DNA from: Prostheceraeus crozeri
Taxonomy: Eukaryota; Platyhelminthes; Polycladida; Euryleptidae
DNA length: 64,000 nucleotides
Direction of reading: 5' to 3'
Assembly (NCBI GenBank): GCA_907163375.1
Contig: CAJQUW010006858.1
Location: 62,001 to 126,000 of the forward strand
Part shown: positions 10,700 to 34,569 of the stretch, one piece after another
Numbering within the stretch: the first letter of the stretch is position 1
Layout: every line of letters starts with the position of its first letter
Notes under the pieces: generated by a model
Databases searched by the model: none
What the model was told of the DNA's origin: nothing
What the model saw: only the letters and a program-made list of their open reading frames with translations
Translations under genes and position numbers: made by a program

Positions 10700-10789
10700 C
10701 AGTATTCTACCAAACTCGCGTACGTTCCATTGTGGTCACTTCGCATGTATCATGTTGACTGCTGTTGACGGGAGGTAGTTCAGACAGTT

Positions 10790-11181: not shown

Positions 11182-12000
11182 AGGGACTCCTAGGCCCATT
11201 TCAGACAAGGTTTTCTTACTGAACTTCATTTATCTCATAGAAAGGGTCAATATACATCAATTGACATAGACATCGATCTATTTTCACTCATGAAATGTCC
11301 CAGGGGGCCAAACTGAAATACCTCGAAATAGCCCTAATTTCGTGGGCCCACAGTTTGGTGCCACACTTAGGACCCCTTGCAGATGAAAATGAATTCCAAC
11401 AAGGAAGAATACTACAATATAGGTCTCTCAGCTCAAGCAAATAAAATACTAAGTCTATTGGCCATCCATAAGTGGATCTATCGGCCCTCTAAACTAGTCC
11501 AACTTTGACCATGCAAAAGGAGGCCAAATCCCAAGAGTCAAAAATTTCACAAAAATTGCTCCAACTTTCAAGGACTCCTAGGCCCATATCTGATAAAAGT
11601 TTGTTACGGGACCTCATTTTTCTCATAGAATGGGTCAATGTATATCCATTGACATAGACATCGATCAATTTTTACTCATGAAATGTCCCAGGGTGGCCAA
11701 ACTGAAATACCTCAAAATAACCCTAATTTCGTGGGCCCACGGTTTGGTGCCACACTTAGGACCCTTTCTAGATGGAAGTATATTCCAACAGACTAGAATA
11801 CTACAATATAGGTCTCTCAGCTCAAGTAAGTGAAATATCAAGTCTATAGGCCATCCATATCTGGCTCTATCGGCCCTCTAAACTAGTCTAACTTTGACCA
11901 TGCAAAAGGAGGCCAAATCCCAAGAGTCAAAAATTTCACAAAAATTGCTCCAACTTTCAGGGACTCCTAGGCCCACATCTGATAAAAGTTTGTTATTGGC
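11182..12000. repeat. ~388-bp tandem repeat, two copies plus a partial third
   Basis: The phrase GGACTCCTAGGCCCA occurs at about 11184, 11572 and 11961, spacing 388-389. Between them long stretches match closely, for example TGACATAGACATCGATC and AAATGTCCCAGGG. The third copy breaks off after about 40 bases. It is non-coding. Confidence 0.85.
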
Positions 12001-12048
12001 CAACATTCATGTGAGATAGAGCATCAATATCTTCTTATTTCCACCTAG

Positions 12049-12160
12049 TATGATGCCATTACAGGCACTCTAGTTAGTGATACACTCTCATAGTGATGAC
12101 ATCATATAGGCCAATTTATCGCTGTAATCACAAAATTTGTCAAAATGTACCATTGATTTA
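12049..12160. repeat. direct repeat flanking the recombinase array, left copy
   Basis: This ~112-bp stretch, starting at TATGATGCCATTACAG, is closely matched at 34456-34569 on the other side of the 21-kb array, in the same orientation. It could be a copy of an older dispersed repeat or a duplication tied to how the array formed. Confidence 0.75.
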
Positions 12161-12184
12161 AAGAGCATTCTTGACAAGTGGTCA

Positions 12185-14254
12185 ACTGCCATCTAATACA
12201 TTGCTTCATGCTGAACATTATTCATTCATTCTCTTCAATAATGATGCCCTGATGGATGTATAAAGAAGTCAATTATCCCTTTAAAAATGTGATAAATTTT
12301 GACCAAATTTGACAAAAAATGAATATTTCCAAGTTTGACTGAATTTCAGTCAAGTTGAATGGGCCATTTGTCACTTTTCAAATTCATGTTCAGTTAGAAT
12401 TATGCCTTTGGATAATGAGATACTCTTTTCCGTATATCCGTAAATTTAAACATTTCATTTCTTCTCATTAAATAGAATAAAGAAAAACAATTTTGGGTCA
12501 TCCAGACCCGCTTTTGCCATAAGGGTACGCAAGGTGGTTAGATGCTTTGTGGTTGACTCTTTATTCTGACACCCATAATTATTTTCATATCGGACATAAC
12601 CAATTCGTAATTCCTCAAACGAGTCGATATGGCGATCGTTGATATTCATAGAATTGTGATTCGCCTCAATCACTGATCCGTATGCTTCTCGGCATCTAAA
12701 AATTAGATTATTTATTTATTATATATATCAAATGTTTATATCAGGAATTCTAACAAATATTCTTATTGACATGAGGAATTCATGATTAAATATTTATATA
12801 CTCAAATCGCAATATATATTCACCTTTCAATGTATTCATAAATGTGTGAATCGTAACCCAACGCCCTGTAATACGCATTCCCCGATCTCAATGTTCTCAA
12901 TACAGATCATCTTGTATATGGCACCTGTTATCATTGAGGTTAGCCGCAATGAGGATTGAAATGTCTACCTCACCAATTGGTGCATGGCATATTTTCATAT
13001 GCCTGAATAATTGCTGAGATTTTTCGGTGCATAGTGGGCAATGTCTTGAGAATCTAGGCATCCTGAAAAAAGGATAATAATATGTACATATTACCACAAT
13101 AAAGTATAAATCGTACATAAAATATTTTATAAATTTAAATATTATTAAAAATTACCACCTAAATTAAATGCATTCAAATGTCATGGAATATATTGCTTCA
13201 TGCTAGACATCATTCATTAATTCTCTTCAATTATGATGCCTGCTGTATGTTTAAATAAGTCAATTATCTCTTTAAAAATGTGATAAATTATGACCAAATT
13301 TGACAAAAAATGAATATTTCCAAGTTTGACTGAATTTCAGTCAAGTTGAATGGGCCATTTGTCACTTTTCAAATTCATGTTCAGTTAGAATTATGCCTTT
13401 TCCGTATATCCGTAAATTTAAACATTTCATTTCTTCTCATTAAATAGAATAAAGAAAAACAAACACTTGTTCATCCATATCAAATCTGATTATTCAAATT
13501 TATGTAAATTCGATGATTTCATAGAATGTCTTACGCTTTATCAAAGTTAACTATTTCAAACTGTTTATATACAATAATACATCATCCACAAATATACTTC
13601 ACATATATGTACATGTTGAGATTCTATAAGCTTGATTAGCATGTTCATCATCAACAATTAGAATGGAGGAAGAATGAAATTAAATTTTCAAATTTACATA
13701 TGATACGTCTTTGTACTAATTCTCCATAATCCATCAACACTCCATTCTCGTATTTACAATAATGTACATCATGGCCATTTCATATTTTCTTATCTACATA
13801 TTTACAAACGCTGTTGACCCCAATACAAAGGTTAATGTGTTTCGTGTTTTGCATGTTATGTACTAAAAGATATGACATGTGATTGTTTGTATGATTAACC
13901 AATTATGACCTGAAATTCAATAATTAGTTCTATATACAATTTAGGTAACAGATTATATTATGCTGTTTGAAATATATATGAATCTACATGTCTATATACA
14001 TACAAATCTTACGTACAAATGTATGCCGAAATCATACGAATACTTTGTCTTATCATGAAATAGTCTTAATTGGTTTACAATGTATGTGATTTTGTAGGAA
14101 AGCCATGATGAATAATAAAGAAGAAATTTTATTTATTTACCTATCATTTTTGAGTGAATCCTATATCGTCGTCCAAAAAGTCACTACTTCACTCTTTATC
14201 ATTCTAAATTAAATGCACTATACATATAGCATGTTAATAGATTATGAATTATAT
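12185..14254 (-). repeat. array unit 0, partial
   Basis: This leftmost copy starts with a diverged version of the unit spacer (12185-12489). It then jumps at the shared bases ACAA into the recombinase coding part (TTTTGGGTCATCC), losing about 2.5 kb relative to an intact unit. After the junction it carries recombinase N-terminal sequence (12673-12490), a zinc-finger exon (13061-12842) that is frameshifted after HIQDD, and the spacer up to the next unit. It also lacks a 16-base segment near 13397. Confidence 0.8.
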
Positions 14255-14515
14255 TTATAAATCCCTGAACCTAGCTAATGTAGTCCGCGGTCTTATTTTC
14301 CCCATTTTCACTAAATTGCGGTACTTATCGCGAACTTGCATCCCGGTACGTCGGCCACCAAATAAATTACGCCCAATTATTGCCCAAGAGGGACTTTCAT
14401 TACGTTCAAACTCACTAATGAGTGCCTCTTCTTCATTGGAAGTCCAAGGCACTCGTGTTTTGAATGTTGATGTTGAAGTACCTGTTGTTGATACTGGGCT
14501 GTTAGGTATGCTCAT
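14255..14515 (-). CDS. Myb/SANT (telobox-like) domain, unit 1
   Basis: The translation is identical to the unit 2 copy described at 17786-18046. The frame is open for about 130 codons upstream of the listed ATG, so it is probably the last exon of a longer protein. Confidence 0.7.
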   Translation of the reverse strand: MSIPNSPVSTTGTSTSTFKTRVPWTSNEEEALISEFERNESPSWAIIGRNLFGGRRTGMQVRDKYRNLVKMGKIRPRTTLARFRDL

Positions 14516-15016
14516 GTTATCATTTGTTGAATTTTGAATGTCTGCATTGTCTGCTGAATCAGGTATTGTATTAAAAATTGTGGTTTGAGTGTCAGATTGA
14601 GGAATGTGTTGATGTGGAGGTGTCTGCTTGCTGTGGAGGTGGGTTCAAATGACGTGGTTTCTTAATGATGACTCGACTGGAGTAGGTTACTGTGTTTGAT
14701 GTGGTTGGTTGATCTGTGTTTACTAAATCCCTATATGTATCTATAATGGTCCTACTTCGGTCGGAGATTTCTGAACAGTCAGAGAAATTGTCTTCCGATT
14801 CAGATGTTAACTCATCGTCATCACATGAATTAGCATCATCCTCAGGCAATTTCTGTACAGTCCATATCATCTTCTCTAATAGGAGATGATGACCTGGCGG
14901 GGTCAATGACGTACACTCCGTCAATTATATTTATCCCAGGTCTGATTCCGCTGTCGGCCATGCGTATCGGAAAAGATTGTAACCTATGTAACAGTTGTGC
15001 CATTTGAAGTTGTGTA

Positions 15017-16572
15017 TCATTGTCTGTCAAGGGTTGGGCGACTGGGTGCTTGAATGTTTATTGTGTTTCGGTTGTCATTTTGTGGCCATGGTGGATGCGT
15101 TGTGAAGTCGTATGATGTCTCGTTTCCGCTCATGATCGAATCAATGAAGTCTACGCCTTGTCTTCGAGCTTCAATTTGGTCACTAAGGTCGTAGTGCCTC
15201 ATCATGGTCGCTGCCGAATGATTCATGTGCCTGGATACTGATGGTATCAAACTGTTGTTCCGGCGAGAAACTTCTGTGGCAGGGACCTTGCGGAAAAGAG
15301 ACATCAAGACTGGTCTTACTTTTGTCATTTGTTCAACATTCTTTTTCATGCGCTTACGAAAATTGTTGCTTTCATAAAAAAGAATGTTATTCTGTTCAAC
15401 GCGAAAAAAGAAAGGCTTCTGAAGAGTCATGATGTCGAAAGATATCGTAAAAGCCGAGGAGAAAATTTCTTTCTATTGGTGTAACAAAAACAAACGCAGG
15501 ACCGACAGCTCGATCAGTTTTATGATTTTGCATTTTAATGACGTAGTCCCTGTCAGGATCACTGTTATCTAACTGTATTCCCGCCAGAACCTCCTCCCAG
15601 GTAGAATTCATGAAGGTGGCCAGTCGTACTGGGTTGCGCGCGTACAACATGTACCCAAATCTCAAAATCCATTTGGATGCAGTCACTAAATTATTAGACG
15701 TTCTCAATAGATTTAAGGGGTCTACAAACTCCCCTACGGTTCCTGGTTTCCGTAAATCTTGCATTGCCTTAAAAGTGTTGTTATACAATACAAGATTGGG
15801 AGTTTTATTCGATTTTTTCGTCTTTGACGTTTGGTATTTGCTTTAATGTAAAAAGCTATATAATTGCTGGAATATTTAAGGCATTGTTGAAGAAAGTTGT
15901 ATAAAGACATGAGTGCATTCATGTAATTAGCCTTTGTATTGGGGGCAAGGCTTTCGTTTTCAATTACTAGTGATGAGATAATATCGTCATTCAGTAACAA
16001 TTTTGGGTCATCCAGACCCGCTTTTGCCATAAGGGTACGCAAGGTGGTTAGATGCTTTGTGGTTGACTCTTTATTCTGACACCCATAATTATTTTCATAT
16101 CGGACATAACCAATTCGTAATTCCTCAAACGAGTCGATATGGCGATCGTTGATATTCATAGAATCGTGATTCGCCTCAATCACTGATCCGTATGCTTCTC
16201 GGCATCTAAAAATTAGATAATTTATTTATTATATATATCAAATGTTTATATCAGGAATTCTAACAAATATTCTTATTGACATGAGGAATTCATGATTAAA
16301 TATTTATATACTCAAATCGCAATATATATTCACCTTTCAATGTATTCATAAATGTGTGAATCGGAACCCAACGCCCTGTAATACGCATTCCCCGATCTCA
16401 ATGTTCTCAATACTATATCATCTTGTATATGGCACCTGTTATCATTGAGGTTAGCCGCAATGAGGATTGAAATGTCTACCTCACCAATTGGTGCATGGCA
16501 TATTTTCATATGCCTGAATAATTGCTGAGATTTTTCGGTGCATAGTGGGCAATGTCTTGAGAATCTAGGCAT
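15017..16572 (-). pseudogene. tyrosine recombinase, unit 1
   Basis: Zinc-finger exon 16572-16334, intron 16333-16206, exon 2 from 16205. The core-binding part is interrupted at the A-run near 15800 (six A instead of seven), which throws the frame into KNRIKLP. The catalytic half resumes at 15788 and shares the second frame break near 15400. It has a Gly-Phe in SGNETSYDF like the other copies and a VRLATF variant where most copies read VRLVTF. Confidence 0.7.
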
Positions 16573-17785
16573 CCTGAAAAAAGGATAATAATACGTACAT
16601 ATTACCACAATAAAGTATAAATCGTACATGAAATATTTTATAAATTTAAATATTATTAAAAATTACCACCTAAATTAAATGCATTCAAATGTCATGGAAT
16701 ATATTGCTTCATGCTAGACATCATTCATTAATTCTCTTCAATTATGATGCCCTGCTGTATGTTTAAATAAGTCAATTATCTCTTTAAAAATGTGATAAAT
16801 TATGACCAAATTTGACAAAAAATGAATATTTCCAAGTTTGACTGAATTTCAGTCAAGTTGAATGGGCCATTTGTCACTTTTCAAATTCATGTTCAGTTAG
16901 AATTATGCCTTTGGATAATGAGATACTCTTTTCCGTATATCCGTAAATTTAAACATTTCATTTCTTCTCATTAAATAGAATAAAGAAAAACAAACACTTG
17001 TTCATCCATATCAAATCTGATTATTCAAATTTATGTAAATTCGATGATTTCATAGAATGTCTTACGCTTTATCAAAGTTAACTATTTCAAACTGTTTATA
17101 TACAATAATACATCATCCACAAATATACTTCACATATATGTACATGTTGAGATTCTATAAGCTTGATTAGCATGTTCATCATCAACAATTAGAATGGAGG
17201 AAGAATGAAATTAAATTTTCAAATTTACATATGATACGTCTTTGTACTAATTCTCCATAATCCATCAACACTCCATTCTCGTATTTACAATAATGTACAT
17301 CATGGCCATTTCATATTTTCTTATCTACATATTTACAAACGCTGTTGACCCCAATACAAAGGTTAATGTGTTTCGTGTTTTGCATGTTATGTACTAAAAG
17401 ATATGACATGTGATTGTTTGTATGATTAACCAATTATGACCTGAAATTCAATAATTAGTTCTATATACAATTTAGGTAACAGATTATATTATGCTGTTTG
17501 AAATATATATGAATCTACATGTCTATATACATACAAATCTTACGTACAAATGTATGCCGAAATCATACGAATACTTTGTCTTATCATGAAATAGTCTTAA
17601 TTGGTTTACAATGTATGTGATTTTGTAGGAAAGTCATGATGAATAATAAAGAAGAAATTTTATTTTTTTACCTATCATTTTTGAGTGAATCCTATATCGT
17701 CGTCCAAAAAGTCACTACTTCACTCTTTATCATTCTAAATTAAATGCACTATACATATAGCATGTTAATAGATTATGAATTATAT

Positions 17786-18046
17786 TTATAAATCCCTGAA
17801 CCTAGCTAATGTAGTCCGCGGTCTTATTTTCCCCATTTTCACTAAATTGCGGTACTTATCGCGAACTTGCATCCCGGTACGTCGGCCACCAAATAAATTA
17901 CGCCCAATTATTGCCCAAGAGGGACTTTCATTACGTTCAAACTCACTAATGAGTGCCTCTTCTTCATTGGAAGTCCAAGGCACTCGTGTTTTGAATGTTG
18001 ATGTTGAAGTACCTGTTGTTGATACTGGGCTGTTAGGTATGCTCAT
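17786..18046 (-). CDS. Myb/SANT (telobox-like) DNA-binding domain
   Basis: After a Ser/Thr-rich leader the domain reads RVPWTSNEEEALISEF, then PSWAIIGRNLF and GMQVRDKYRNLVKMGKI. The three helices with Trp at helix 1 and 2 and VRDKYRNL in the recognition helix resemble the telobox subclass of Myb domains, which bind telomeric repeats in TRF/Taz1-type proteins. That likeness is my reading of the motif, not a search result. The same frame is open upstream from about 18176, just after an acceptor-like CCACCTCCACAG, so this may be a 130-residue terminal exon rather than a separate gene. AATAAA signals follow about 110 bases downstream. It is the same in all six copies. Confidence 0.75.
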   Translation of the reverse strand: MSIPNSPVSTTGTSTSTFKTRVPWTSNEEEALISEFERNESPSWAIIGRNLFGGRRTGMQVRDKYRNLVKMGKIRPRTTLARFRDL

Positions 18047-18122
18047 GTTATCATTTGTTGAATTTTGAATGTCTGCATTGTCTGCTGAATCAGGTATTGT
18101 ATTAAAAATTGTGGTTTGAGTG

Positions 18123-18561
18123 TCAGATTGAGGAATGTGTTGATGTGGAGGTGTCTGCTTGCTGTGGAGGTGGGTTCAAATGACGTGGTTTCTTAATGAT
18201 GACTCGACTGGAGTAGGTTACTGTGTTTGATGTGGTTGGTTGATCTGTGTTTACTAAATCCCTATATGTATCTATAATGGTCCTACTTCGGTCGGAGATT
18301 TCTGAACAGTCAGAGAAATTGTCTTCCGATTCAGATGTTAACTCATCGTCATCACATGAATTAGCATCATCCTCAGGCAATTTCTGTACAGTCCATATCA
18401 TCTTCTCTAATAGGAGATGATGACCTGGCGGGGTCAATGACGTACACTCCGTCAATTATATTTATCCCAGGTCTGATTCCGCTGTCGGCCATGCGTATCG
18501 GAAAAGATTGTAACCTATGTAACAGTTGTGCCATTTGAAGTTGTGTATCATTGTCTGTCAA
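18123..18561 (-). CDS. acidic low-complexity frames between recombinase and Myb domain
   Basis: Two overlapping open frames lie here. One (18561-18373, with an open frame but no ATG at its start) reads LLHRLQSFPIRMADSGIRP then GVYVIDPARSSSPIRED. The other (18455-18123) is Asp/Glu/Ser-rich (DDANSCDDDELTSESEDNF) and ends in PRHLNPPPQQ. Their order and composition suggest they are consecutive pieces of one protein joining the recombinase to the Myb domain, by small introns or frameshifts. I cannot place the joins. They are conserved in units 1 to 5; unit 4 has an extra C near 25220 that fuses the acidic frame into a different tail. Confidence 0.4.
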
Positions 18562-20106
18562 GGGTTGGGCGACTGGGTGCTTGAATGTTTATTGTGTTTC
18601 GGTTGTCATTTTGTGGCCATGGTGGATGCGTTGTGAAGTCGTATGATGTCTCGTTTCCGCTCATGATCGAATCAATGAAGTCTACGCCTTGTCTTCGAGC
18701 TTCAATTTGGTCACTAAGGTCGTAGTGCCTCATCATGGTCGCTGCCGAATGATTCATGTGCCTGGATACTGATGGTATCAAACTGTTGTTCCGGCGAGAA
18801 ACTTCTGTGGCAGGGACCTTGCGGAAAAGAGACATCAAGACTGGTCTTACTTTTGTCATTTGTTCAACATTATTTTTCATGCGCTTACGAAAATTGTTGC
18901 TTTCATAAAAAAGAATGTTATTCTGTTCAACGCGAAAAAAGAAAGGCTTCTGAAGAGTCATGATGTCGAAAGATATCGTAAAAGTCGAGGAGAAAATTTC
19001 TTTCTATTGGTGTAACAAAAACAAACGCAGGACCGACAGCTCGATCAGTTTTATGATTTTGCATTTTAATGACGTAGTCCCTGTCAGGATCACTGTTATC
19101 TAACTGTATTCCCGCCAGAACCTCCTCCCAGGTAGAATTCATGAAGGTGACCAATCGTACTGGGTTGCGCGCGTACAGCATGCTCCCAGATCTCAAAATC
19201 CATTTGGATGCAGTCACTAAATTATTGGACGTTCTCAATAGATTTAAGGGGTCTACAAACTCCCCTACGGTTCCTGGTTTCCGTAAATCTTGCATTGCCT
19301 TAAAAGTGTTGTTATACAATACAAGATTGGGAGTTTTATTCGATTTTTTTCGTCTTTGACGTTTGGTATTTGCTTTAATGTAAAAAGCTATATAATTGCT
19401 GGAATATTTAAGGCATTGTTGAAGAAAGTTGTATAAAGACATGAGTGCATTCATGTAATTAGCCTTTGTATTGGGGGCAAGGCTTTCGTTTTCAATTACT
19501 AGTGATGAGATAATATCGTCATTCAGTAACAATTTTGGGTCATCCAGACCCGCTTTTGCCATAAGGGTACGCAAGGTGGTTAGATGCTTTGTGGTTGACT
19601 CTTTATTCTGACACCCATAATTATTTTCATATCGGACATAACCAATTCGTAATTCCTCAAACGAGTCGATATGGCGATCGTTGATATTCATAGAATCGTG
19701 ATTCGCCTCAATCACTGATCCGTATGCTTCTCGGCATCTAAAAATTAGATAATTTATTTATTATATATATCAAATGTTTATATCAGGAATTCTAACAAAT
19801 ATTCTTATTGACATGAGGAATTCATGATTAAATATTTATATACTCAAATCGCAATATATATATTCACCTTTCAATGTATTCATAAATGTGTGAATCGGAA
19901 CCCAATGCCCTGTAATACGCATTCCCCGATCTCAATGTTCTCAATACTATATCATCTTGTATATGGCACCTGTTATCATTGAGGTTAGCCGCAATGAGGA
20001 ATGAAATGTCTACCTCACCAATTGGTGCATGGCATATTTTCATATGCCTGAATAATTGCTGAGATTTTTCGGTGCATAGTGGGCAATGTCTTGAGAATCT
20101 AGGCAT
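18548..20106 (-). CDS. C2H2 finger plus tyrosine recombinase, unit 2
   Basis: This is probably a site-specific DNA recombinase. Exon 1 starts at ATG 20106, right after an acceptor-like TTTTTTCAG, and holds one zinc finger (CPLCTEKSQQLFRHMKICH). The donor AAAG|GTGAAT at 19868/19867 and the acceptor TTTTTAG|ATGCC at 19738/19737 join in phase (IER, then CREAYGSV). Exon 2 has the core-binding domain (about residues 90-210), an Arg in ARNPVRLVTFMNSTWEEV and a Lys in MQNHKTDRAV. The frame stops at 18927. The catalytic C-terminus continues in the +1 frame: FRKVPATEVS, HMNHSAATMMRHYDLSD with the His and the Tyr nucleophile. The total is about 475 residues if the break is bypassed. All full-length copies have the same break, so it may be programmed, an unseen intron, or an inherited mutation. 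Confidence 0.7.
19738..19867 (-). other. 130-bp intron of the array recombinase
   Basis: The donor is GTGAATATATA and the acceptor is CTAATTTTTAG on the minus strand. Removing it joins two exons in the same reading phase. The intron is conserved in every unit; units 2 and 5 have an extra TA in it. Confidence 0.75.
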
Positions 20107-21320
20107 CCTGAAAAAAGGATAATAATATGTACATATTACCACAATAAAGTATAAATCGTACATAAAATATTTTATAAATTTAAATATTATTAAAAATTAC
20201 CACCTAAATTAAATGCATTCAAATGTCATGGAATATATTGCTTCATGCTAGACATCATTCATTAATTCTCTTCAATTATGATGCCCTGCTGTATGTTTAA
20301 ATAAGTCAATTATCTCTTTAAAAATGTGATAAATTATGACCAAATTTGACAAAAAATGAATATTTCCAAGTTTGACTGAATTTCAGTCAAGTTGAATGGG
20401 CCATTTGTCACTTTTCAAATTCATGTTCAGTTAGAATTATGCCTTTGGATAATGAGATACTCTTTTCCGTATATCCGTAAATTTAAACATTTCATTTCTT
20501 CTCATTAAATAGAATAAAGAAAAACAAACACTTGTTCATCCATATCAAATCTGATTATTCAAATTTATGTAAAATTCGATGATTTCATAGAATGTCTTAC
20601 GCTTTATCAAAGTTAACTATTTCAAACTGTTTATATACAATAATACATCATCCACAAATATACTTCACATATATGTACATGTTGAGATTCTATAAGCTTG
20701 ATTAGCATGTTCATCATCAACAATTAGAATGGAGGAAGAATGAAATTAAATTTTCAAATTTACATATGATACGTCTTTGTACTAATTCTCCATAATCCAT
20801 CAACACTCCATTCTCGTATTTACAATAATGTACATCATGGCCATTTCATATTTTCTTATCTACATATTTACAAACGCTGTTGACCCCAATACAAAGGTTA
20901 ATGTGTTTCGTGTTTTGCATGTTATGTACTAAAAGATATGACATGTGATTGTTTGTATGATTAACCAATTATGACCTGAAATTCAATAATTAGTTCTATA
21001 TACAATTTAGGTAACAGATTATATTATGCTGTTTGAAATATATATGAATCTACATGTCTATATACATACAAATCTTACGTACAAATGTATGCCGAAATCA
21101 TACGAATACTTTGTCTTATCATGAAATAGTCTTAATTGGTTTACAATGTATGTGATTTTGTAGGAAAGTCATGATGAATAATAAAGAAGAAATTTTATTT
21201 ATTTACCTATCATTTTTGAGTGAATCCTATATCGTCGTCCAAAAAGTCACTACTTCACTCTTTATCATTCTAAATTAAATGCACTATACATATAGCATGT
21301 TAATAGATTATGAATTATAT

Positions 21321-21581
21321 TTATAAATCCCTGAACCTAGCTAATGTAGTCCGCGGTCTTATTTTCCCCATTTTCACTAAATTGCGGTACTTATCGCGAA
21401 CTTGCATCCCGGTACGTCGGCCACCAAATAAATTACGCCCAATTATTGCCCAAGAGGGACTTTCATTACGTTCAAACTCACTAATGAGTGCCTCTTCTTC
21501 ATTGGAAGTCCAAGGCACTCGTGTTTTGAATGTTGATGTTGAAGTACCTGTTGTTGATACTGGGCTGTTAGGTATGCTCAT
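21321..21581 (-). CDS. Myb/SANT (telobox-like) domain, unit 3
   Basis: No residue differs from the unit 2 domain. Confidence 0.7.
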   Translation of the reverse strand: MSIPNSPVSTTGTSTSTFKTRVPWTSNEEEALISEFERNESPSWAIIGRNLFGGRRTGMQVRDKYRNLVKMGKIRPRTTLARFRDL

Positions 21582-22082
21582 GTTATCATTTGTTGAATTT
21601 TGAATGTCTGCATTGTCTGCTGAATCAGGTATTGTATTAAAAATTGTGGTTTGAGTGTCAGATTGAGGAATGTGTTGATGTGGAGGTGTCTGCTTGCTGT
21701 GGAGGTGGGTTCAAATGACGTGGTTTCTTAATGATGACTCGACTGGAGTAGGTTACTGTGTTTGATGTGGTTGGTTGATCTGTGTTTACTAAATCCCTAT
21801 ATGTATCTATAATGGTCCTACTTCGGTCGGAGATTTCTGAACAGTCAGAGAAATTGTCTTCCGATTCAGATGTTAACTCATCGTCATCACATGAATTAGC
21901 ATCATCCTCAGGCAATTTCTGTACAGTCCATATCATCTTCTCTAATAGGAGATGATGACCTGGCGGGGTCAATGACGTACACTCCGTCAATTATATTTAT
22001 CCCAGGTCTGATTCCGCTGTCGGCCATGCGTATCGGAAAAGATTGTAACCTATGTAACAGTTGTGCCATTTGAAGTTGTGTA

Positions 22083-23638
22083 TCATTGTCTGTCAAGGGT
22101 TGGGCGACTGGGTGCTTGAATGTTTATTGTGTTTCGGTTGTCATTTTGTGGCCATGGTGGATGCGTTGTGAAGTCGTATGATGTCTCGTTTCCGCTCATG
22201 ATCGAATCAATGAAGTCTACGCCTTGTCTTCGAGCTTCAATTTGGTCACTAAGGTCGTAGTGCCTCATCATGGTCGCTGCCGAATGATTCATGTGCCTGG
22301 ATACTGATGGTATCAAACTGTTGTTCCGGCGAGAAACTTCTGTGGCAGGGACCTTGCGGAAAAGAGACATCAAGACTGGTCTTACTTTTGTCATTTGTTC
22401 AACATTCTTTTTCATGCGCTTACGAAAATTGTTGCTTTCATAAAAAAGAATGTTATTCTGTTCAACGCGAAAAAAGAAAGGCTTCTGAAGAGTCATGATG
22501 TCGAAAGATATCGTAAAAGTCGAGGAGAAAATTTCTTTCTATTGGTGTAACAAAAACAAACGCAGGACCGACAGCTCGATTAGTTTTATGATTTTGCATT
22601 TTAATGACGTAGTCCCTGTCAGGATCACTGTTATCTAACTGTATTCCCGCCAGAACCTCCTCCCAGGTAGAATTCATGAAGGTGACCAATCGTACTGGGT
22701 TGCGCGCGTACAGCATGCTCCCAGATCTCAAAATCCATTTGGATGCAGTCACTAAATTATTGGACGTTCTCAATAGATTTAAGGGGTCTACAAACTCCCT
22801 ACGGTTCCTGGTTTCCGTAAATCTTGCATTGCCTTAAAAGTGTTGTTATACAATACAAGATTGGGAGTTTTATTCGATTTTTTTCGTCTTTGACGTTTGG
22901 TATTTGCTTTAATGTAAAAAGCTATATAATTGCTGGAATATTTAAGGCATTGTTGAAGAAAGTTGTATAAAGACATGAGTGCATTCATGTAATTAGCCTT
23001 TGTATTGGGGGCAAGGCTTTCGTTTTCAATTACTAGTGATGAGATAATATCGTCATTCAGTAACAATTTTGGGTCATCCAGACCCGCTTTTGCCATAAGG
23101 GTACGCAAGGTGGTTAGATGCTTTGTGGTTGACTCTTTATTCTGACACCCATAATTATTTTCATATCGGACATAACCAATTCGTAATTCCTCAAACGAGT
23201 CGATATGGCGATCGTTGATATTCATAGAATCGTGATTCGCCTCAATCACTGATCCGTATGCTTCTCGGCATCTAAAAATTAGATAATTTATTTATTATAT
23301 ATATCAAATGTTTATATCAGGAATTCTAACAAATATTCTTATTGACATGAGGAATTCATGATTAAATATTTATATACTCAAATCGCAATATATATTCACC
23401 TTTCAATGTATTCATAAATGTGTGAATCGGAACCCAATGCCCTGTAATACGCATTCCCCGATCTCAATGTTCTCAATACTATATCATCTTGTATATGGCA
23501 CCTGTTATCATTGAGGTTAGCCGCAATGAGGAATGAAATGTCTACCTCACCAATTGGTGCATGGCATATTTTCATATGCCTGAATAATTGCTGAGATTTT
23601 TCGGTGCATAGTGGGCAATGTCTTGAGAATCTAGGCAT
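22083..23638 (-). pseudogene. tyrosine recombinase, unit 3
   Basis: Exon 1 from ATG 23638, exon 2 from 23271. The seven-A linker keeps the N-terminal half open (to KPGTVG), then the single-base deletion near 22797 shifts the frame. The catalytic half restarts at 22773 and has the common break near 22470. An Asp to Asn change (HKTNRAV) sits next to the Lys motif. Confidence 0.7.
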
Positions 23639-24851
23639 CCTGAAAAAAGGATAATAATATGTACATATTACCACAATAAAGTATAAATCGTACATAAAAT
23701 ATTTTATAAATTTAAATATTATTAAAAATTACCACCTAAATTAAATGCATTCAAATGTCATGGAATATATTGCTTCATGCTAGACATCATTCATTAATTC
23801 TCTTCAATTATGATGCCCTGCTGTATGTTTAAATAAGTCAATTATCTCTTTAAAAATGTGATAAATTATGACCAAATTTGACAAAAAATGAATATTTCCA
23901 AGTTTGACTGAATTTCAGTCAAGTTGAATGGGCCATTTGTCACTTTTCAAATTCATGTTCAGTTAGAATTATGCCTTTGGATAATGAGATACTCTTTTCC
24001 GTATATCCGTAAATTTAAACATTTCATTTCTTCTCATTAAATAGAATAAAGAAAAACAAACACTTGTTCATCCATATCAAATCTGATTATTCAAATTTAT
24101 GTAAATTCGATGATTTCATAGAATGTCTTACGCTTTATCAAAGTTAACTATTTCAAACTGTTTATATACAATAATACATCATCCACAAATATACTTCACA
24201 TATATGTACATGTTGAGATTCTATAAGCTTGATTAGCATGTTCATCATCAACAATTAGAATGGAGGAAGAATGAAATTAAATTTTCAAATTTACATATGA
24301 TACGTCTTTGTACTAATTCTCCATAATCCATCAACACTCCATTCTCGTATTTACAATAATGTACATCATGGCCATTTCATATTTTCTTATCTACATATTT
24401 ACAAACGCTGTTGACCCCAATACAAAGGTTAATGTGTTTCGTGTTTTGCATGTTATGTACTAAAAGATATGACATGTGATTGTTTGTATGATTAACCAAT
24501 TATGACCTGAAATTCAATAATTAGTTCTATATACAATTTAGGTAACAGATTATATTATGCTGTTTGAAATATATATGAATCTACATGTCTATATACATAC
24601 AAATCTTACGTACAAATGTATGCCGAAATCATACGAATACTTTGTCTTATCATGAAATAGTCTTAATTGGTTTACAATGTATGTGATTTTGTAGGAAAGC
24701 CATGATGAATAATAAAGAAGAAATTTTATTTATTTACCTATCATTTTTGAGTGAATCCTATATCGTCGTCCAAAAAGTCACTACTTCACTCTTTATCATT
24801 CTAAATTAAATGCACTATACATATAGCATGTTAATAGATTATGAATTATAT

Positions 24852-25112
24852 TTATAAATCCCTGAACCTAGCTAATGTAGTCCGCGGTCTTATTTTCCCC
24901 ATTTTCACTAAATTGCGGTACTTATCGCGAACTTGCATCCCGGTACGTCGGCCACCAAATAAATTACGCCCAATTATTGCCCAAGAGGGACTTTCATTAC
25001 GTTCAAACTCACTAATGAGTGCCTCTTCTTCATTGGAAGTCCAAGGCACTCGTGTTTTGAATGTTGATGTTGAAGTACCTGTTGTTGATACTGGGCTGTT
25101 AGGTATGCTCAT
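24852..25112 (-). CDS. Myb/SANT (telobox-like) domain, unit 4
   Basis: The domain translation is unchanged. Just upstream, an inserted C near 25220 alters the preceding acidic frame. Confidence 0.7.
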   Translation of the reverse strand: MSIPNSPVSTTGTSTSTFKTRVPWTSNEEEALISEFERNESPSWAIIGRNLFGGRRTGMQVRDKYRNLVKMGKIRPRTTLARFRDL

Positions 25113-25614
25113 GTTATCATTTGTTGAATTTTGAATGTCTGCATTGTCTGCTGAATCAGGTATTGTATTAAAAATTGTGGTTTGAGTGTCAGATTGAGGA
25201 ATGTGTTGATGTGGAGGTGTCCTGCTTGCTGTGGAGGTGGGTTCAAATGACGTGGTTTCTTAATGATGACTCGACTGGAGTAGGTTACTGTGTTTGATGT
25301 GGTTGGTTGATCTGTGTTTACTAAATCCCTATATGTATCTATAATGGTCCTACTTCGGTCGGAGATTTCTGAACAGTCAGAGAAATTGTCTTCCGATTCA
25401 GATGTTAACTCATCGTCATCACATGAATTAGCATCATCCTCAGGCAATTTCTGTACAGTCCATATCATCTTCTCTAATAGGAGATGATGACCTGGCGGGG
25501 TCAATGACGTACACTCCGTCAATTATATTTATCCTAGGTCTGATTCCGCTGTCGGCCATGCGTATCGGAAAAGATTGTAACCTATGTAACAGTTGTGCCA
25601 TTTGAAGTTGTGTA

Positions 25615-27171
25615 TCATTGTCTGTCAAGGGTTGGGCGACTGGGTGCTTGAATGTTTATTGTGTTTCGGTTGTCATTTTGTGGCCATGGTGGATGCGTTG
25701 TGAAGTCGTATGATGTCTCGTTTCCGCTCATGATCGAATCAATGAAGTCTACGCCTTGTCTTCGAGCTTCAATTTGGTCACTAAGGTCGTAGTGCCTCAT
25801 CATGGTCGCTGCCGAATGATTCATGTGCCTGGATACTGATGGTATCAAACTGTTGTTCCGGCGAGAAACTTCTGTGGCAGGGACCTTGCGGAAAAGAGAC
25901 ATCAAGACTGGTCTTACTTTTGTCATTTGTTCAACATTCTTTTTCATGCGCTTACGAAAATTGTTGCTTTCATAAAAAAGAATGTTATTCTGTTCAACGC
26001 GAAAAAAGAAAGGCTTCTGAAGAGTCATGATGTCGAAAGATATCGTAAAAGTCGAGGAGAAAATTTCTTTCTATTGGTGTAACAAAAACAAACGCAGGAC
26101 CGACAGCTCGATCAGTTTTATGATTTTGCATTTTAATGACGTAGTCCCTGTCAGGATCACTGTTATCTAACTGTATTCCCGCCAGAACCTCCTCCCAGGT
26201 AGAATTCATGAAGGTGACCAATCGTACTGGGTTGCGCGCGTACAGCATGCTCCCAGATCTCAAAATCCATTTGGATGCAGTCACTAAATTATTGGACGTT
26301 CTCAATAGATTTAAGGGGTCTACAAACTCCCCTACGGTTCCTGGTTTCCGTAAATCTTGCATTGCCTTAAAAGTGTTGTTATACAATACAAGATTGGGAG
26401 TTTTATTCGATTTTTTCGTCTTTGACGTTTGGTATTTGCTTTAATGTAAAAAGCTATATAATTGCTGGAATATTTAAGGCATTGTTGAAGAAAGTTGTAT
26501 AAAGACATGAGTGCATTCATGTAATTAGCCTTTGTATTGGGGGCAAGGCTTTCGTTTTCAATTACTAGTGATGAGATAATATCGTCATTCAGTAACAATT
26601 TTGGGTCATCCAGACCCGCTTTTGCCATAAGGGTACGCAAGGTGGTTAGATGCTTTGTGGTTGACTCTTTATTCTGACACCCATAATTATTTTCATATCG
26701 GACATAACCAATTCGTAATTCCTCAAACGAGTCGATATGGCAATCGTTGATATTCATAGAATCGTGATTCGCCTCAATCACTGATCCGTATGCTTCTGGG
26801 CATCTAAAAATTAGATAATTTATTTATTATATATATCAAATGTTTTATATCAGGAATTCTAACAAATATTCTTATTGACATGAGGAATTCATGATTAAAT
26901 ATTTATATACTCAAATCGCAATATATATTCACCTTTCAATGTATTCATAAATGTGTGAATCGGAACCCAATGCCCTGTAATACGCATTCCCCGATCTCAA
27001 TGTTCTCAATACTATATCATCTTGTATATGGCACCTGTTATCATTGAGGTTAGCCGCAATGAGGAATGAAATGTCTACCTCACCAATTGGTGCATGGCAT
27101 ATTTTCATATGCCTGAATAATTGCTGAGATTTTTCGGTGCATAGTGGGCAATGTCTTGAGAATCTAGGCAT
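25615..27171 (-). pseudogene. tyrosine recombinase, unit 4
   Basis: Exon 1 from ATG 27171. The linker has six A, breaking the frame into KNRIKLP, and the catalytic half (26386-25994) restarts in the proper frame. The common break near 26000 is present. A DRH to DCH change lies early in exon 2. Confidence 0.7.
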
Positions 27172-28385
27172 CCTGAAAAAAGGATAATAATATGTACATA
27201 TTACCACAATAAAGTATAAATCGTACATAAAATATTTTATAAATTTAAATATTATTAAAAATTACCACCTAAATTAAATGCATTCAAATGTCATGGAATA
27301 TATTGCTTCATGCTAGACATCATTCATTAATTCTCTTCAATTATGATGCCCTGCTGTATGTTTAAATAAGTCAATTATCTCTTTAAAAATGTGATAAATT
27401 ATGACCAAATTTGACAAAAAATGAATATTTCCAAGTTTGACTGAATTTCAGTCAAGTTGAATGGGCCATTTGTCACTTTTCAAATTCATGTTCAGTTAGA
27501 ATTATGCCTTTGGATAATGAGATACTCTTTTCCGTATATCCGTAAATTTAAACATTTCATTTCTTCTCATTAAATAGAATAAAGAAAAACAAACACTTGT
27601 TCATCCATATCAAATCTGATTATTCAAATTTATGTAAATTCGATGATTTCATAGAATGTCTTACGCTTTATCAAAGTTAACTATTTCAAACTGTTTTATA
27701 TACAATAATACATCATCCACAAATATACTTCACATATATGTACATGTTGAGATTCTATAAGCTTGATTAGCATGTTCATCATCAACAATTAGAATGGAGG
27801 AAGAATGAAATTAAATTTTCAAATTTACATATGATACGTCTTTGTACTAATTCTCCATAATCCATCAACACTCCATTCTCGTATTTACAATAATGTACAT
27901 CATGGCCATTTCATATTTTCTTATCTACATATTTACAAACGCTGTTGACCCCAATACAAAGGTTAATGTGTTTCGTGTTTTGCATGTTATGTACTAAAAG
28001 ATATGACATGTGATTGTTTGTATGATTAACCAATTATGACCTGAAATTCAATAATTAGTTCTATATACAATTTAGGTAACAGATTATATTATGCTGTTTG
28101 AAATATATATGAATCTACATGTCTATATACATACAAATCTTACGTACAAATGTATGCCGAAATCATACGAATACTTTGTCTTATCATGAAATAGTCTTAA
28201 TTGGTTTACAATGTATGTGATTTTGTAGGAAAGTCATGATGAATAATAAAGAAGAAATTTTATTTATTTACCTATAATTTTTGAGTGAATCCTATATCGT
28301 CGTCCAAAAAGTCACTACTTCACTCTTTATCATTCTAAATTAAATGCACTATACATATAGCATGTTAATAGATTATGAATTATAT

Positions 28386-28646
28386 TTATAAATCCCTGAA
28401 CCTAGCTAATGTAGTCCGCGGTCTTATTTTCCCCATTTTCACTAAATTGCGGTACTTATCGCGAACTTGCATCCCGGTACGTCGGCCACCAAATAAATTA
28501 CGCCCAATTATTGCCCAAGAGGGACTTTCATTACGTTCAAACTCACTAATGAGTGCCTCTTCTTCATTGGAAGTCCAAGGCACTCGTGTTTTGAATGTTG
28601 ATGTTGAAGTACCTGTTGTTGATACTGGGCTGTTAGGTATGCTCAT
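28386..28646 (-). CDS. Myb/SANT (telobox-like) domain, unit 5
   Basis: Translation unchanged from the other copies. Confidence 0.7.
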   Translation of the reverse strand: MSIPNSPVSTTGTSTSTFKTRVPWTSNEEEALISEFERNESPSWAIIGRNLFGGRRTGMQVRDKYRNLVKMGKIRPRTTLARFRDL

Positions 28647-29147
28647 GTTATCATTTGTTGAATTTTGAATGTCTGCATTGTCTGCTGAATCAGGTATTGT
28701 ATTAAAAATTGTGGTTTGAGTGTCAGATTGAGGAATGTGTTGATGTGGAGGTGTCTGCTTGCTGTGGAGGTGGGTTCAAATGACGTGGTTTCTTAATGAT
28801 GACTCGACTGGAGTAGGTTACTGTGTTTGATGTGGTTGGTTGATCTGTGTTTACTAAATCCCTATATGTATCTATAATGGTCCTACTTCGGTCGGAGATT
28901 TCTGAACAGTCAGAGAAATTGTCTTCCGATTCAGATGTTAACTCATCGTCATCACATGAATTAGCATCATCCTCAGGCAATTTCTGTACAGTCCATATCA
29001 TCTTCTCTAATAGGAGATGATGACCTGGCGGGGTCAATGACGTACACTCCGTCAATTATATTTATCCTAGGTCTGATTCCGCTGTCGGCCATGCGTATCG
29101 GAAAAGATTGTAACCTATGTAACAGTTGTGCCATTTGAAGTTGTGTA

Positions 29148-30705
29148 TCATTGTCTGTCAAGGGTTGGGCGACTGGGTGCTTGAATGTTTATTGTGTTTC
29201 GGTTGTCATTTTGTGGCCATGTTGGATGCGTTGTGAAGTCGTATGATGTCTCGTTTCCGCTCATGATCGAATCAATGAAGTCTACGCCTTGTCTTCGAGC
29301 TTCAATTTGGTCACTAAGGTCGTAGTGCCTCATCATGGTCGCTGCCGAATGATTCATGTGCCTGGATACTGATGGTATCAAACTGTTGTTCCGGCGAGAA
29401 ACTTCTGTGGCAGGGACCTTGCGGAAAAGAGACATCAAGACTGGTCTTACTTTTGTCATTTGTTCAACATTCTTTTTCATGCGCTTACGAAAATTGTTGC
29501 TTTCATAAAAAAGAATGTTATTCTGTTCAACGCGAAAAAAGAAAGGCTTCTGAAGAGTCATGATGTCGAAAGATATCGTAAAAGTCGAGGAGAAAATTTC
29601 TTTCTATTGGTGTAACAAAAACAAACGCAGGACCGACAGCTCGATCAGTTTTATGATTTTGCATTTTAATGACGTAGTTCCTGTTAGGATCACTGTTATC
29701 TAACTGTATTCCCGCCAGAACCTCCTCCCAGGTAGAATTCATGAAGGTGACCAATCGTACTGGGTTGCGCGCGTACAACATGTACCCAAATCTCAAAATC
29801 CATTTGGATGCAGTCACTAAATTATTGGACGTTCTCAATAGATTTAAGGGGTCTACAAACTCCCCTACGGTTCCTGGTTTCCGTAAATCTTGCATTGCCT
29901 TAAAAGTGTTGTTATACAATACAAGATTGGGAGTTTTATTCGATTTTTTCGTCTTTGACGTTTGGTATTTGCTTTAATGTAAAAAGCTATATAATTGCTG
30001 GAATATTTAAGGCATTGTTGAAGAAAGTTGTATAAAGACATGAGTGCATTCATGTAATTAGCCTTTGTATTGGGGGCAAGGCTTTCGTTTTCAATTACTA
30101 GTGATGAGATAATATCGTCATTCAGTAACAATTTTGGGTCATCCAGACCCGCTTTTGCCATAAGGGTACGCAAGGTGGTTAGATGCTTTGTGGTTGACTC
30201 TTTATTCTGACACCCATAATTATTTTCATATCGGACATAACCAATTCGTAATTCCTCAAACGAGTCGATATGGCGATCGTTGATATTCATAGAATCGTGA
30301 TTCGCCTCAATCACTGATCCGTATGCTTCTGGGCATCTAAAAATTAGATTATTTATTTATTATATATATCAAATGTTTATATCAGGAATTCTAACAAATA
30401 TTCTTATTGACATGAGGAATTCATGATTAAATATTTATATACTCAAATCGCAATATATATATTCACCTTTCAATGTATTCATAAATGTGTGAATCGGAAC
30501 CCAATGCCCTGTAATACGCATTCCCCGATCTCAATGTTCTCAATACTATATCATCTTGTATATGGCACCTGTTATCATTGAGGTTAGCCGCAATGAGGAT
30601 TGAAATGTCTACCTCACCAATTGGTGCATGGCATATTTTCATATGCCTGAATAATTGCTGAGATTTTTCCGTGCATAGTGGGCAATGTCTTGAGAATCTA
30701 GGCAT
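29148..30705 (-). pseudogene. tyrosine recombinase, unit 5
   Basis: Exon 1 from ATG 30705. Six-A linker frame break, then the catalytic half 29919-29527 with DPNRNYVIK in place of DPDRDYVIK near the Lys motif, and the common break near 29533. The C-terminal part has HPTWPQ instead of HPPWPQ. Confidence 0.7.
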
Positions 30706-31918
30706 CCTGAAAAAAGGATAATAATATGTACATATTACCACAATAAAGTATAAATCGTACATAAAATATTTTATAAATTTAAATATTATTAAAAATTACC
30801 ACCTAAATTAAATGCATTCAAATGTCATGGAATATATTGCTTCATGCTAGACATCATTCATTAATTCTCTTCAATTATGATGCCCTGCTGTATGTTTAAA
30901 TAAGTCAATTATCTCTTTAAAAATGTGATAAATTATGACCAAATTTGACAAAAAATGAATATTTCCAAGTTTGACTGAATTTCAGTCAAGTTGAATGGGC
31001 CATTTGTCACTTTTCAAATTCATGTTCAGTTAGAATTATGCCTTTGGATAATGAGATACTCTTTTCCGTATATCCGTAAATTTAAACATTTCATTTCTTC
31101 TCATTAAATAGAATAAAGAAAAACAAACACTTGTTCATCCATATCAAATCTGATTATTCAAATTTATGTAAATTCGATGATTTCATAGAATGTCTTACGC
31201 TTTATCAAAGTTAACTATTTCAAACTGTTTATATACAATAATACATCATCCACAAATATACTTCACATATATGTACATGTTGAGATTCTATAAGCTTGAT
31301 TAGCATGTTCATCATCAACAATTAGAATGGAGGAAGAATGAAATTAAATTTTCAAATTTACATATGATACGTCTTTGTACTAATTCTCCATAATCCATCA
31401 ACACTCCATTCTCGTATTTACAATAATGTACATCATGGCCATTTCATATTTTCTTATCTACATATTTACAAACGCTGTTGACCCCAATACAAAGGTTAAT
31501 GTGTTTCGTGTTTTGCATGTTATGTACTAAAAGATATGACATGTGATTGTTTGTATGATTAACCAATTATGACCTGAAATTCAATAATTAGTTCTATATA
31601 CAATTTAGGTAACAGATTATATTATGCTGTTTGAAATATATATGAATCTACATGTCTATATACATACAAATCTTACGTACAAATGTATGCCGAAATCATA
31701 CGAATACTTTGTCTTATCATGAAATAGTCTTAATTGGTTTACAATGCATGTGATTTTGTAGGAAAGTCATGATGAATAATAAAGAAGAAATTTTATTTAT
31801 TTACCTATAATTTTTGAGTGAATCCTATATCGTCGTCCAAAAAGTCACTACTTCACTCTTTATCATTCTAAATTAAATGCACTATACATATAGCATGTTA
31901 ATAGATTATGAATTATAT

Positions 31919-32179
31919 TTATAAATCCCTGAACCTAGCTAATGTAGTCCGCGGTCTTATTTTCCCCATTTTCACTAAATTGCGGTACTTATCGCGAACT
32001 TGCATCCCGGTACGTCGGCCACCAAATAAATTACGCCCAATTATTGCCCAAGAGGGACTTTCATTACGTTCAAACTCACTAATGAGTGCCTCTTCTTCAT
32101 TGGAAGTCCAAGGCACTCGTGTTTTGAATGTTGATGTTGAAGTACCTGTTGTTGATACTGGGCTGTTAGGTATGCTCAT
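31919..32179 (-). CDS. Myb/SANT (telobox-like) domain, unit 6
   Basis: The domain is intact although the recombinase half next to it has been deleted. Confidence 0.65.
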   Translation of the reverse strand: MSIPNSPVSTTGTSTSTFKTRVPWTSNEEEALISEFERNESPSWAIIGRNLFGGRRTGMQVRDKYRNLVKMGKIRPRTTLARFRDL

Positions 32180-32458
32180 GTTATCATTTGTTGAATTTTG
32201 AATGTCTGCATTGTCTGCTGAATCAGGTATTGTATTAAAAATTGTGGTTTGAGTGTCAGATTGAGGAATGTGTTGATGTGGAGGTGTCTGCTTGCTGTGG
32301 AGGTGGGCTCAAATGACGTGGTTTCTTAATGATGACTCGACTGGAGTAGGTTACTGGGTTGCGCGCGTACAACATGTACCCAAATCTCAAAATCCATTTG
32401 GATGCAGTCACTAAATTATTGGACGTTCTCAATAGATTTTATGGGTCTACAAACTCCC

Positions 32459-33297
32459 CTACGTTTCCTGGTTTCCGTAAATCTTGCATTGCCTTAAAGG
32501 TGTTGTTATACAATACAAGATTGGGAGTTTTATTCGATTTTTTCGTCTTTGACGTTTGGTATTTGCTTTAATGTAAAAAGCTATATAATTGCTGGAATAT
32601 TTAAGGCATTGTTGAAGAAAGTTGTATAAAGACATGAGTGCATTCATGTAATTAGCCTTTGTATTGGGGGCAAGGCTTTCGTTTTCAATTACTAGTGATG
32701 AGATAATATCGTCATTCAGTAACAATTTTGGGTCATCCAGACCCGCTTTTGCCATAAGGGTACGCAAGGTGGTTAGATGCTTTGTGGTTGACTCTTTATT
32801 CTGACACCCATAATTATTTTCATATCGGACATAACCAATTCGTAATTCCTCAAACGAGTCGATATGGCGATCGTTGATATTCATAGAATTGTGATTCGCC
32901 TCAATCACTGATCCGTATGCTTCTGGGCATCTAAAAATTAGATAATTTATTTATTATATATATCAAATGTTTATATCAGGAATTCTAACAAATATTCTTA
33001 TTGACATGAGGAATTCATGATTAAATATTTATATACTCAAATCGCAATATATATTCACCTTTCAATGTATTCATAAATGTGTGAATCGGAACCCAACGCC
33101 CTGTAATACGCATTCCCCGATCTCAATGTTCTCAATACTATATCATCTTGTATATGGCACCTGTTATCATTGAGGTTAGCCGCAATGAGGATTGAAATGT
33201 CTACCTCACCAATTGGTGCATGGCATATTTTCATATGCCTGAATAATTGCTGAGATTTTTCCGTGCATAGTGGGCAATGTCTTGAGAATCTAGGCAT
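32459..33297 (-). pseudogene. tyrosine recombinase N-terminal remnant, unit 6
   Basis: The zinc-finger exon (ATG 33297) and core-binding part remain. The catalytic half is lost in the 0.94-kb deletion, and the six-A linker already breaks the frame. It cannot encode an active recombinase. Confidence 0.75.
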
Positions 33298-33632
33298 CCT
33301 GAAAAAAGGATAATAATACGTACATATTACCACAATAAAGTATAAATCGTACATAAAATATTTTATAGATTTAAATATTATTAAAAATTACCACCTAAAT
33401 TAAATGCATTCAAATGTCATGGAATATATTGCTTCATGCTAGACATCATTCATTAATTCTCTTCAATTATGATGCCCTGCTGCATGTTTAAATAAGTCAA
33501 TTATCTCTTTAAAAATGTGATAAATTATGACCAAATTTGACAAAAAATGAATATTTCCAAGTTTGACTGAATTTCAATCAAGTTCAATGGGCCAATGGGC
33601 ACCCATCAAACTGATATTCAGTTAAAAGAGTA

Positions 33633-34455
33633 CCGTATTTCATTGAATAAGAGACGCGTCTCTTATTTTTGTCATATCCCTGATTGATGCGTCTCTTATT
33701 CAGGGGCGTCTCTTATTCAAGGGCGTCTCTTATTTATCAAATGTTCAAGTTTTCATTCTTTCATTAGAAAAAGGTGTCTTAGTTTTTTGCTACTATTGTC
33801 TTAGGTAACCTTTGCATTCCTCACTTAGGCCTATGTCATGGGCAAATTTTGCCAGTAATTTTTCTTACATATATATATATATATACGCTTTATCATAATT
33901 CAGATATTTTGGAAATGAAAGGAGTTTTATGGTTTGTAGTAGCATATCTTGTAGACTCATCTAATACATTGATATACCAGTACATGTTGGCGACTATACA
34001 TGTAGACTAGATCTGAATTTACCGAAACGAAAATACCGATAATCAAGTAGTATTTACAGCAAAAGTTACCGACCGGTACATGACTCCAAATGCAAAGGAA
34101 GCTACCGTATAATGCCTCCTTTAATGGTAGATGAAGTAACCTTAAGTAGACCTGCATGTACGTGTGTACAACATGCCTGTACTGCATGTACAACAACAAG
34201 AAGCCTTATATAGTATACAAGATTGGTCATGATACCCGGTATTTACCAGTAGACTGACTTATTTTACTAAGATAAGTAGGCCTAACAATCGCTCAGGCGG
34301 ATGTAGCTACCACATTACAATAGCCTGCATGTAATATGTCTATAGCAGTCTATTTTTTGTACATGTGTTTCTTATTAAAGTTTTTCCTCTCACGGATGCG
34401 TCTCTTATTCGAGGGCGTCCCTTATTCAAGGGCGTCTCATATTCAAAGAACCATC
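33633..34455. mobile_element. MITE with GCGTCTCTTATTC repeats
   Basis: Both ends carry inverted TTGAATAAGAGACGC-like sequence (left about 33644, right about 34430-34445) and TA dinucleotides at 33631 and 34456. The left end has GCGTCTCTTATTC in four near copies, the right end three, in direct orientation. The inside (33770-34390) is non-coding; the open frame at 33957-34199 looks accidental. It sits between the array and the right flanking repeat. The superfamily is uncertain; TA suggests Tc1/mariner. Confidence 0.6.
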
Positions 34456-34569
34456 TATCATAATGCCATTACAGACACTCTAACTAGTGATACACTCTCA
34501 TAGTAATGACATCATATAGGCCAATTTATCGCTGTAATCACACAAGTTGTCAATATGTACCATTAATTT
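34456..34569. repeat. direct repeat flanking the recombinase array, right copy
   Basis: It matches 12049-12160 closely through TACACTCTCATAGT and GCCAATTTATCGCTGTAATC. Confidence 0.75.

Follow-up and report, generated by a model that had tools for sequence, protein, structure and literature searches.

A tandem array of broken genes for a C2H2-like finger, probable tyrosine recombinase and Myb protein in the polyclad Prostheceraeus crozeri

In the genome assembly of the polyclad flatworm Prostheceraeus crozeri (2.05 Gb, 14165 contigs), we analysed a 64-kb stretch (C5701:62001-126000; hereafter the window) that contains a tandem array of a 3.53-kb unit, each full unit carrying the broken remains of a gene for a C2H2-like finger, a recombinase-like core and a Myb domain. 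The original prediction, made from the letters of the window, was of at least five full ~3.53-kb copies standing head to tail. Comparison of one unit with the window bore this out: the array is real and well delimited, with five full units and remnants, and its edges, predicted at 12185 and 33600, had to be corrected to 12182 and 33627. With the unit at 18176-21710 as reference, the remaining four full units are 99.5-99.8% identical to it, and ~1.2 kb separates the stop of Myb from the ATG of the next unit. The array and the parts of its gene lie as follows.

12182..33627, minus strand: whole array, comprising a remnant, five full 3.53-kb units and one deleted unit (one unit compared with the window)
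14645..32307, minus strand: the five full units, at 14645-18175, 18176-21710, 21711-25242, 25243-28775 and 28776-32307 (unit-to-window comparison, alignment)
12182-12490 plus 12486-14644, minus strand: left remnant, deleted (unit-to-window comparison)
32309-32360 plus 32352-33627, minus strand: right deleted unit, with ~930 bp gone, including the catalytic part of the putative recombinase (unit-to-window comparison)
19868..20106, minus strand: finger exon, C2H2-like (MPRFSRHCPLC...HMKICH), with the reference unit as example (open reading frame (ORF) and translation, splice reading)
19738..19867, minus strand: intron, GT-AG in the reference unit (position compared across contigs)
18602..19736, minus strand: recombinase-like region with a SAM-like N part and R190, K229, R305, H329 and Y338 (P0001 numbering)
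18126..18600, minus strand: acidic linker
17786..18175, minus strand: Myb ORF (PF00249, Pfam Myb_DNA-binding, E 9.7e-07), the C-terminus of the recombinase-like protein

The encoded protein thus runs from a C2H2-like finger through the recombinase-like core and the acidic linker to a C-terminal Myb. As predicted, the finger exon is spliced to the recombinase-like exon, and reverse transcriptase was seen in none of the ORFs and translations of the unit; the intron is GT-AG and all parts are on the minus strand. A splice acceptor abuts the finger-exon ATG in the array and in four aligned relative copies, so a further upstream exon is likely. The Myb domain does lie downstream on the same strand, but it is not a separate gene: in the relative on contig C13320, linker and Myb fall within one open frame, and in that on C2607 the C-part of the recombinase, the linker and the pre-Myb region share one frame, stops included, which makes Myb a part of the recombinase-like protein.

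The core is probably a tyrosine recombinase, an identity that its sequence supports moderately. Its R, K, R, H and Y appear to be placed as in recombinases: R and H are 24 apart and H and Y 9, where the corresponding distances are 23 and 9 in three of the genome's own integrases (three inspected out of seven fetched; W replaces H in two of the three). The pattern R-x(22-24)-H-[ST]-x7-Y was found in 185 of 20000 shuffles and a looser spacing form in 1546 of 20000. The C2607 relative retains R, H and Y of the array core despite 41% overall identity. Pfam listed the SAM-like N-terminal domain (PF02899) alone, below cut-off (E 0.035, 0.094 and 0.062), and the label of tyrosine recombinase, which the original prediction gave outright, rests on this sub-threshold match and on the residue spacing. 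For the recombinase-like core Pfam listed no DUF3504 or Phage_integrase match, PHROG and NCBIfam gave no match, PDB sequences no relevant one, and hhalign to XerD and Cre gave nil; structure prediction from the single sequence reached a mean predicted local distance difference test score (pLDDT) of 35.8, too low for use. No similarity was found to the genome's ordinary recombinases, as represented by the seven fetched, from 150 scored of 2365 candidates. Integrase-family recombinases are abundant in the genome itself: a first look gave 2365 candidates for PF00589, all 150 of those scored were matches, and in ~10 rows of that listing the open frame is exactly 480 aa long.

Among the single-domain scores shown for a profile of the family's Myb, the best was against TRF2 (vertebrate telobox Myb; 26 bits), ahead of B-Myb (21.7 bits) and c-Myb (19.1), whereas over the whole chain, in which several repeats are summed, c-Myb (31.2 bits) and B-Myb (29.6) rank first. 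The TRF2 score offers a lead towards possible telomere binding. Neither (TTAGGG)3 nor (TTAGG)3 was found in the window or in the family loci examined; TTAGGG tracts are abundant in the genome (2131 forward and 810 reverse hits of a five-unit pattern, controls 0 and 0).

In searches of the genome, whose copy counts are lower bounds throughout, near-identical copies were found only at the array locus, on two contigs, yet decayed relatives lie at four other loci. An ordinary local gene cluster, the outcome that the original prediction had set against a mobile element, is therefore half borne out. A purely local cluster would not explain the decayed members, which have their intron at the same place: the finger-core intron is shared by the array and five other contigs, its donor GT having decayed in C2607. 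Contigs C13320 and C1686 carry the finger, the recombinase without its C-part, the linker and Myb, and are probably haplotypes of one locus, as they are collinear at 94-96%. C2607 holds the finger through the linker without a Myb match, and C326 the finger and about half of the recombinase core. On C94 several fragments lie clustered, a Myb among them and one piece out of the usual order; Myb was thus found at two of the four loci. Small fragments of the family occur at C13320:50049-50273 and C8068:2273-2449. At C94:54545-61665 a relic copy is interrupted by a pair of 527-bp direct repeats that share 99% identity and start 6.6 kb from each other, probably an LTR (long terminal repeat) retrotransposon inserted into the relic's Myb end. 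Outside the genome, searches returned no relatives, neither from the protein database (by sequence or by 5-row profile) nor from the IMG/VR viral collection.

A one-base frame break near 18935, in the recombinase-like region, is common to 11 of the 11 copies that span it, on both array contigs, and a break near 18390, in the linker, is identical in 11 of 11 copies and is surrounded by sequence without runs of more than three bases. Further frame changes of the linker lie near 18570, a site whose length differs between copies, and near 18150, at the linker's end; an A-run near 19350 varies in length between copies and is open in the reference unit, and one copy has one extra base near 25200. 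In an actin control from the same assembly, none of the best 22 matches contained a stop, and 19 of these 22 covered almost the full model; over the whole list, 62 of 79 matches lacked an internal stop. Sequencing error as the source of the breaks is weakened by these clean actins and by the shared break outside runs of more than three bases; it may still apply to the breaks in runs, whose length differs between copies. Because two frame breaks are common to 11 of 11 copies and the actins of the assembly are clean, the founder copy was probably broken, and dead, before amplification. No unbroken copy occurs among the genome matches found.

Comparison of the array with its relatives shows that the nonsynonymous difference (pN) was below the synonymous difference (pS) in every part tested (0.391 and 0.749 for the finger and 0.285 and 0.69 for the middle part of the recombinase, both against C13320; 0.397 and 0.739 for the recombinase C-part against C2607; 0.309 and 0.835 for Myb against C1686). 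Between C94 and C2607, two decayed relatives, the middle part gave nearly equal values (0.23 nonsynonymous, 0.288 synonymous), as loss of function would lead one to expect.

The second array contig, C13849, carries six full units followed by deletion units up to the end of the fetched stretch; the unit with the ~930-bp deletion, present once in the window, recurs there two or more times. On the left, the flanks of the two arrays run collinear in blocks (those above 1 kb share 95.8-99.1% identity) that are separated by gaps, some of several kb, and the left edge of the array is the same, so C13849 is probably the other haplotype, to judge from the sequence. Numbering the window units W1-W5 and the C13849 units H1-H6, we counted 3-6 substitutions among W2-W4 and 0-11 among H1-H5 within the arrays, compared with 15-24 between W1-W5 and H1-H5 and 27-31 between H6 and W1-W5. 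Within their arrays, W1, W5 and H6, all at an edge, have diverged furthest, which does not hold for H1.

A repeat R (218 bp) forms the outer edges of the array and recurs inside it, and a repeat X (122 bp) flanks the array on both sides.

12182..12399: LR, the R repeat at the left outer edge
33410..33627: RR, the R repeat at the right outer edge, 87% identical to LR
20219..20436: internal hybrid R, as example, with the switch inside 20337-20385
12041..12162: X, 122-bp repeat, left side
34451..34572: second copy of X (X'), right side, ~820 bp past the array

Further internal R copies in the window start at 13174, 16685, 23751, 27284 and 30818. Of the 218 sites of R, 28 distinguish LR from RR, and the internal R has the RR letter at 15 of the 16 left sites (the remaining one has neither) and the LR letter at 12 of the 12 right sites, the switch between LR and RR type falling within the longest stretch, 49 bp, that is identical in LR and RR. 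This hybrid pattern was observed in every internal R copy that could be read over its whole length, 14 of 14 (6 in the window, 8 in C13849); the C13849 copy at 163333 has two further odd sites, and one more copy, truncated where the fetched stretch ends, was left unscored. R starts ~115 bp upstream of the gene's ATG. A perfect palindrome of 19 bp, two 9-bp arms around a single central base, reaches across the right end of the switch interval. Inverted repeats with arms of at least 8 and spacers of 5-9 bp were not found in R within the mismatch limits of the script, which speaks against a recombination site in R. At the other loci of the family R was not detected, either when the unit was compared with the fetched stretches of five other contigs, which gave matches in coding parts only, or in a genome search with R; the reading of R as a family-wide terminal repeat was accordingly rejected.

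Part of a dispersed repeat that is present on six contigs resembles R (74-77% similarity), with a shorter match on a seventh contig, and at the left edge of the array X and R are contiguous as they are in that repeat (73-75%). The dispersed repeat, multi-kilobase and of unassigned class, lies on C7020, C1256, C4135, C3456, C13997 and C3361, with aligned blocks ~89-99% alike, and contains the X-R segment. A genome search with X listed three places: X stands on both sides of the array in the window and to the left of that in C13849. At its two ends, the stretch between RR and X' carries short arrays of a 17-bp repeat unit (consensus GCGTCTCTTATTCAAGG; 33689-33734 and 34398-34446), and a 389-bp tandem repeat of 2.1 copies lies immediately left of the array (11176-11995).

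We consider it likely that the array is the product of recent passive amplification, by unequal crossing-over, of a broken copy from a family of finger, probable recombinase and Myb proteins that was once a working gene. Unequal exchange is argued for by the hybrid R at the junctions, the position of the switch in the longest identity, the copy number that differs between the presumed haplotypes and the likeness of units within each array, whose interior is homogenised. The founder would have been an already broken gene of a low-copy family flanked by two R copies, in the ancestral order X, LR, spacer, gene, RR, ~820 bp, X'. Unequal homologous recombination between LR and RR would have made the first duplication, and unequal exchange among near-identical units the later growth and homogenisation in each haplotype; we infer that exchange was by homologous recombination rather than by the encoded enzyme. 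The family would go back to a functional gene, most likely the only one carried by a Crypton-like DNA element, with finger and Myb presumably helping DNA binding. On these terms the array needs no recombinase and looks ordinary, the interesting part being the design of the protein; it would be a clean case of a dead gene or element turning satellite-like, in which the founding crossover can be placed within 49 bp.

Several observations weigh against parts of this account. At the right edge R comes before X, an order reversed from that on the left, which simple unequal exchange does not explain, and 12-17 substitutions separate W1 and W5 from the middle units, nearly as many as separate the arrays. 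Integration of a circle into R would yield the same hybrid junction. At the C94 locus, three or more decayed copies lie on one strand, with a junction unrelated to that of the array, and the family as a whole may therefore tend to grow in tandem. As to the family's past, no significant integrase-family profile match to the core was found, neither the ends of the element nor target duplications could be fixed, the edge alignments being too noisy, and the synonymous distances are near saturation.

It is unlikely that we are dealing with a domesticated cellular gene family that was duplicated locally, the array being its pseudogene cluster. Introns, past purifying selection, the small number of loci and the lack of any element termini found would suit such a family, but none of the five loci was found intact, as is common among extinct mobile elements but would be strange in a gene that is needed, with the caveat that more distant intact copies could have escaped the search. 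We regard as quite improbable an array driven by the recombinase itself, in which a circular element with R as its site integrated repeatedly and left attL/attR-like hybrid ends. The original prediction had suggested that circular copies insert into a site carried in each copy, and by topology they could: the hybrid internal R and its start ~115 bp upstream of the ATG fit site-specific integration, a palindrome lies at the right end of the switch interval, and several copies stand in a row at a second locus, C94. However, such insertion is not needed, given the 218-bp R, the 49-bp switch and the probably broken founder. The 218-bp homology far exceeds a recombinase core and the switch falls in the longest identity, as homologous exchange predicts; no inverted repeat of the form looked for was found in R (11-13 bp arms and a 6-8 bp spacer are given in PMC3212892), nor R itself at the family's other loci; and every copy found is broken. 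An assembly artefact is highly improbable, since, although near-identical units are difficult to assemble, two contigs whose left flanks are collinear both carry an array, which starts at the same left edge in both and is made up of different unit variants.

If the family was a mobile element, it was not a plain known Crypton: as originally predicted, the C-terminal Myb and the leading finger set it apart. CryptonF, CryptonA and CryptonI are likewise DNA-level elements without reverse transcriptase that code for a tyrosine recombinase, an identity moderately supported for the array core. By the account in the main text of PMC3212892, Cryptons code for a recombinase, the C-terminal part of CryptonF carries the DNA-binding domain GCR1_C, and animal Cryptons are without a C-terminal domain; unlike these, which end without an extra domain, the array protein starts with a C2H2-like finger and ends with Myb, a word absent from the main text of that paper on Cryptons. 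Fungal and oomycete Cryptons have short terminal direct repeats; at the array, the edge alignments were too noisy to fix the ends of the element.

The finger-recombinase half has a precedent in telomere-associated tyrosine recombinases of endogenous nimaviruses (majaniviruses), which the main text of PMC10871703 describes as C2H2, SAM-like and recombinase domains inserting into the telomere repeats (TAACC)n, with decapod relatives outside viruses, of which the 28S-rDNA-associated ones are predicted to be multi-exon. The likeness to the array protein is one of description. In contrast to the array protein, which has a Myb, no 'Myb' appears in that main text, and the majanivirus recombinases sit in viral genomes, whereas no viral gene was recognised among the window ORFs of at least 120 aa (by eye; ten were scanned with Pfam). 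DIRS, PAT and Ngaro elements also encode tyrosine recombinases, many with split direct repeats (PMC4157794); the array unit is without reverse transcriptase and R was not found at other family loci, so the prediction that it is not DIRS-like stands. DNA-type recombinase elements possess the recombinase domain only, as stated in PMC4157794, and the part of PMC3537659 covered here mentions Myb as a transcription-factor family alone. A finger-recombinase-Myb set in one long-conserved protein, with the core recombinase-like, had no precedent in the openly licensed PMC papers, to the extent that their text was covered, and the architecture may be new; if the recombinase assignment holds, it would widen the range of cargo domains of recombinase transposons. 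Only tentatively could one go on to propose an undescribed class of animal DNA transposons, with C2H2 finger, tyrosine recombinase and TRF-like Myb in one protein, the Myb steering integration to a chosen sequence and tandem arrays at more than one locus as the footprint of integration.

The window contains other mobile-element remains. On the minus strand, a second recombinase at 42956-43858 (DUF3504, E 5.4e-22), not detectably similar to the array recombinase, lies beside a QRICH1-domain ORF at 44673-45092 (E 7.8e-09), a Crypton/QRICH1-like pair. Near the left edge of the array, 8074-10735 on the minus strand holds a 673-aa reverse transcriptase ORF (RVT_1, E 2.4e-11) followed by an ORF that by eye looks like a GIY-YIG nuclease (no Pfam match), a probable Penelope-like element. 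A free-standing Myb/SANT-like ORF at 37122-37718 on the minus strand (PF13873, E 1.6e-07) and, 2.6 kb from it, a DDE_Tnp_4 ORF at 40356-41072 on the plus strand (E 5.8e-15) are possibly the remains of a Harbinger-type element.

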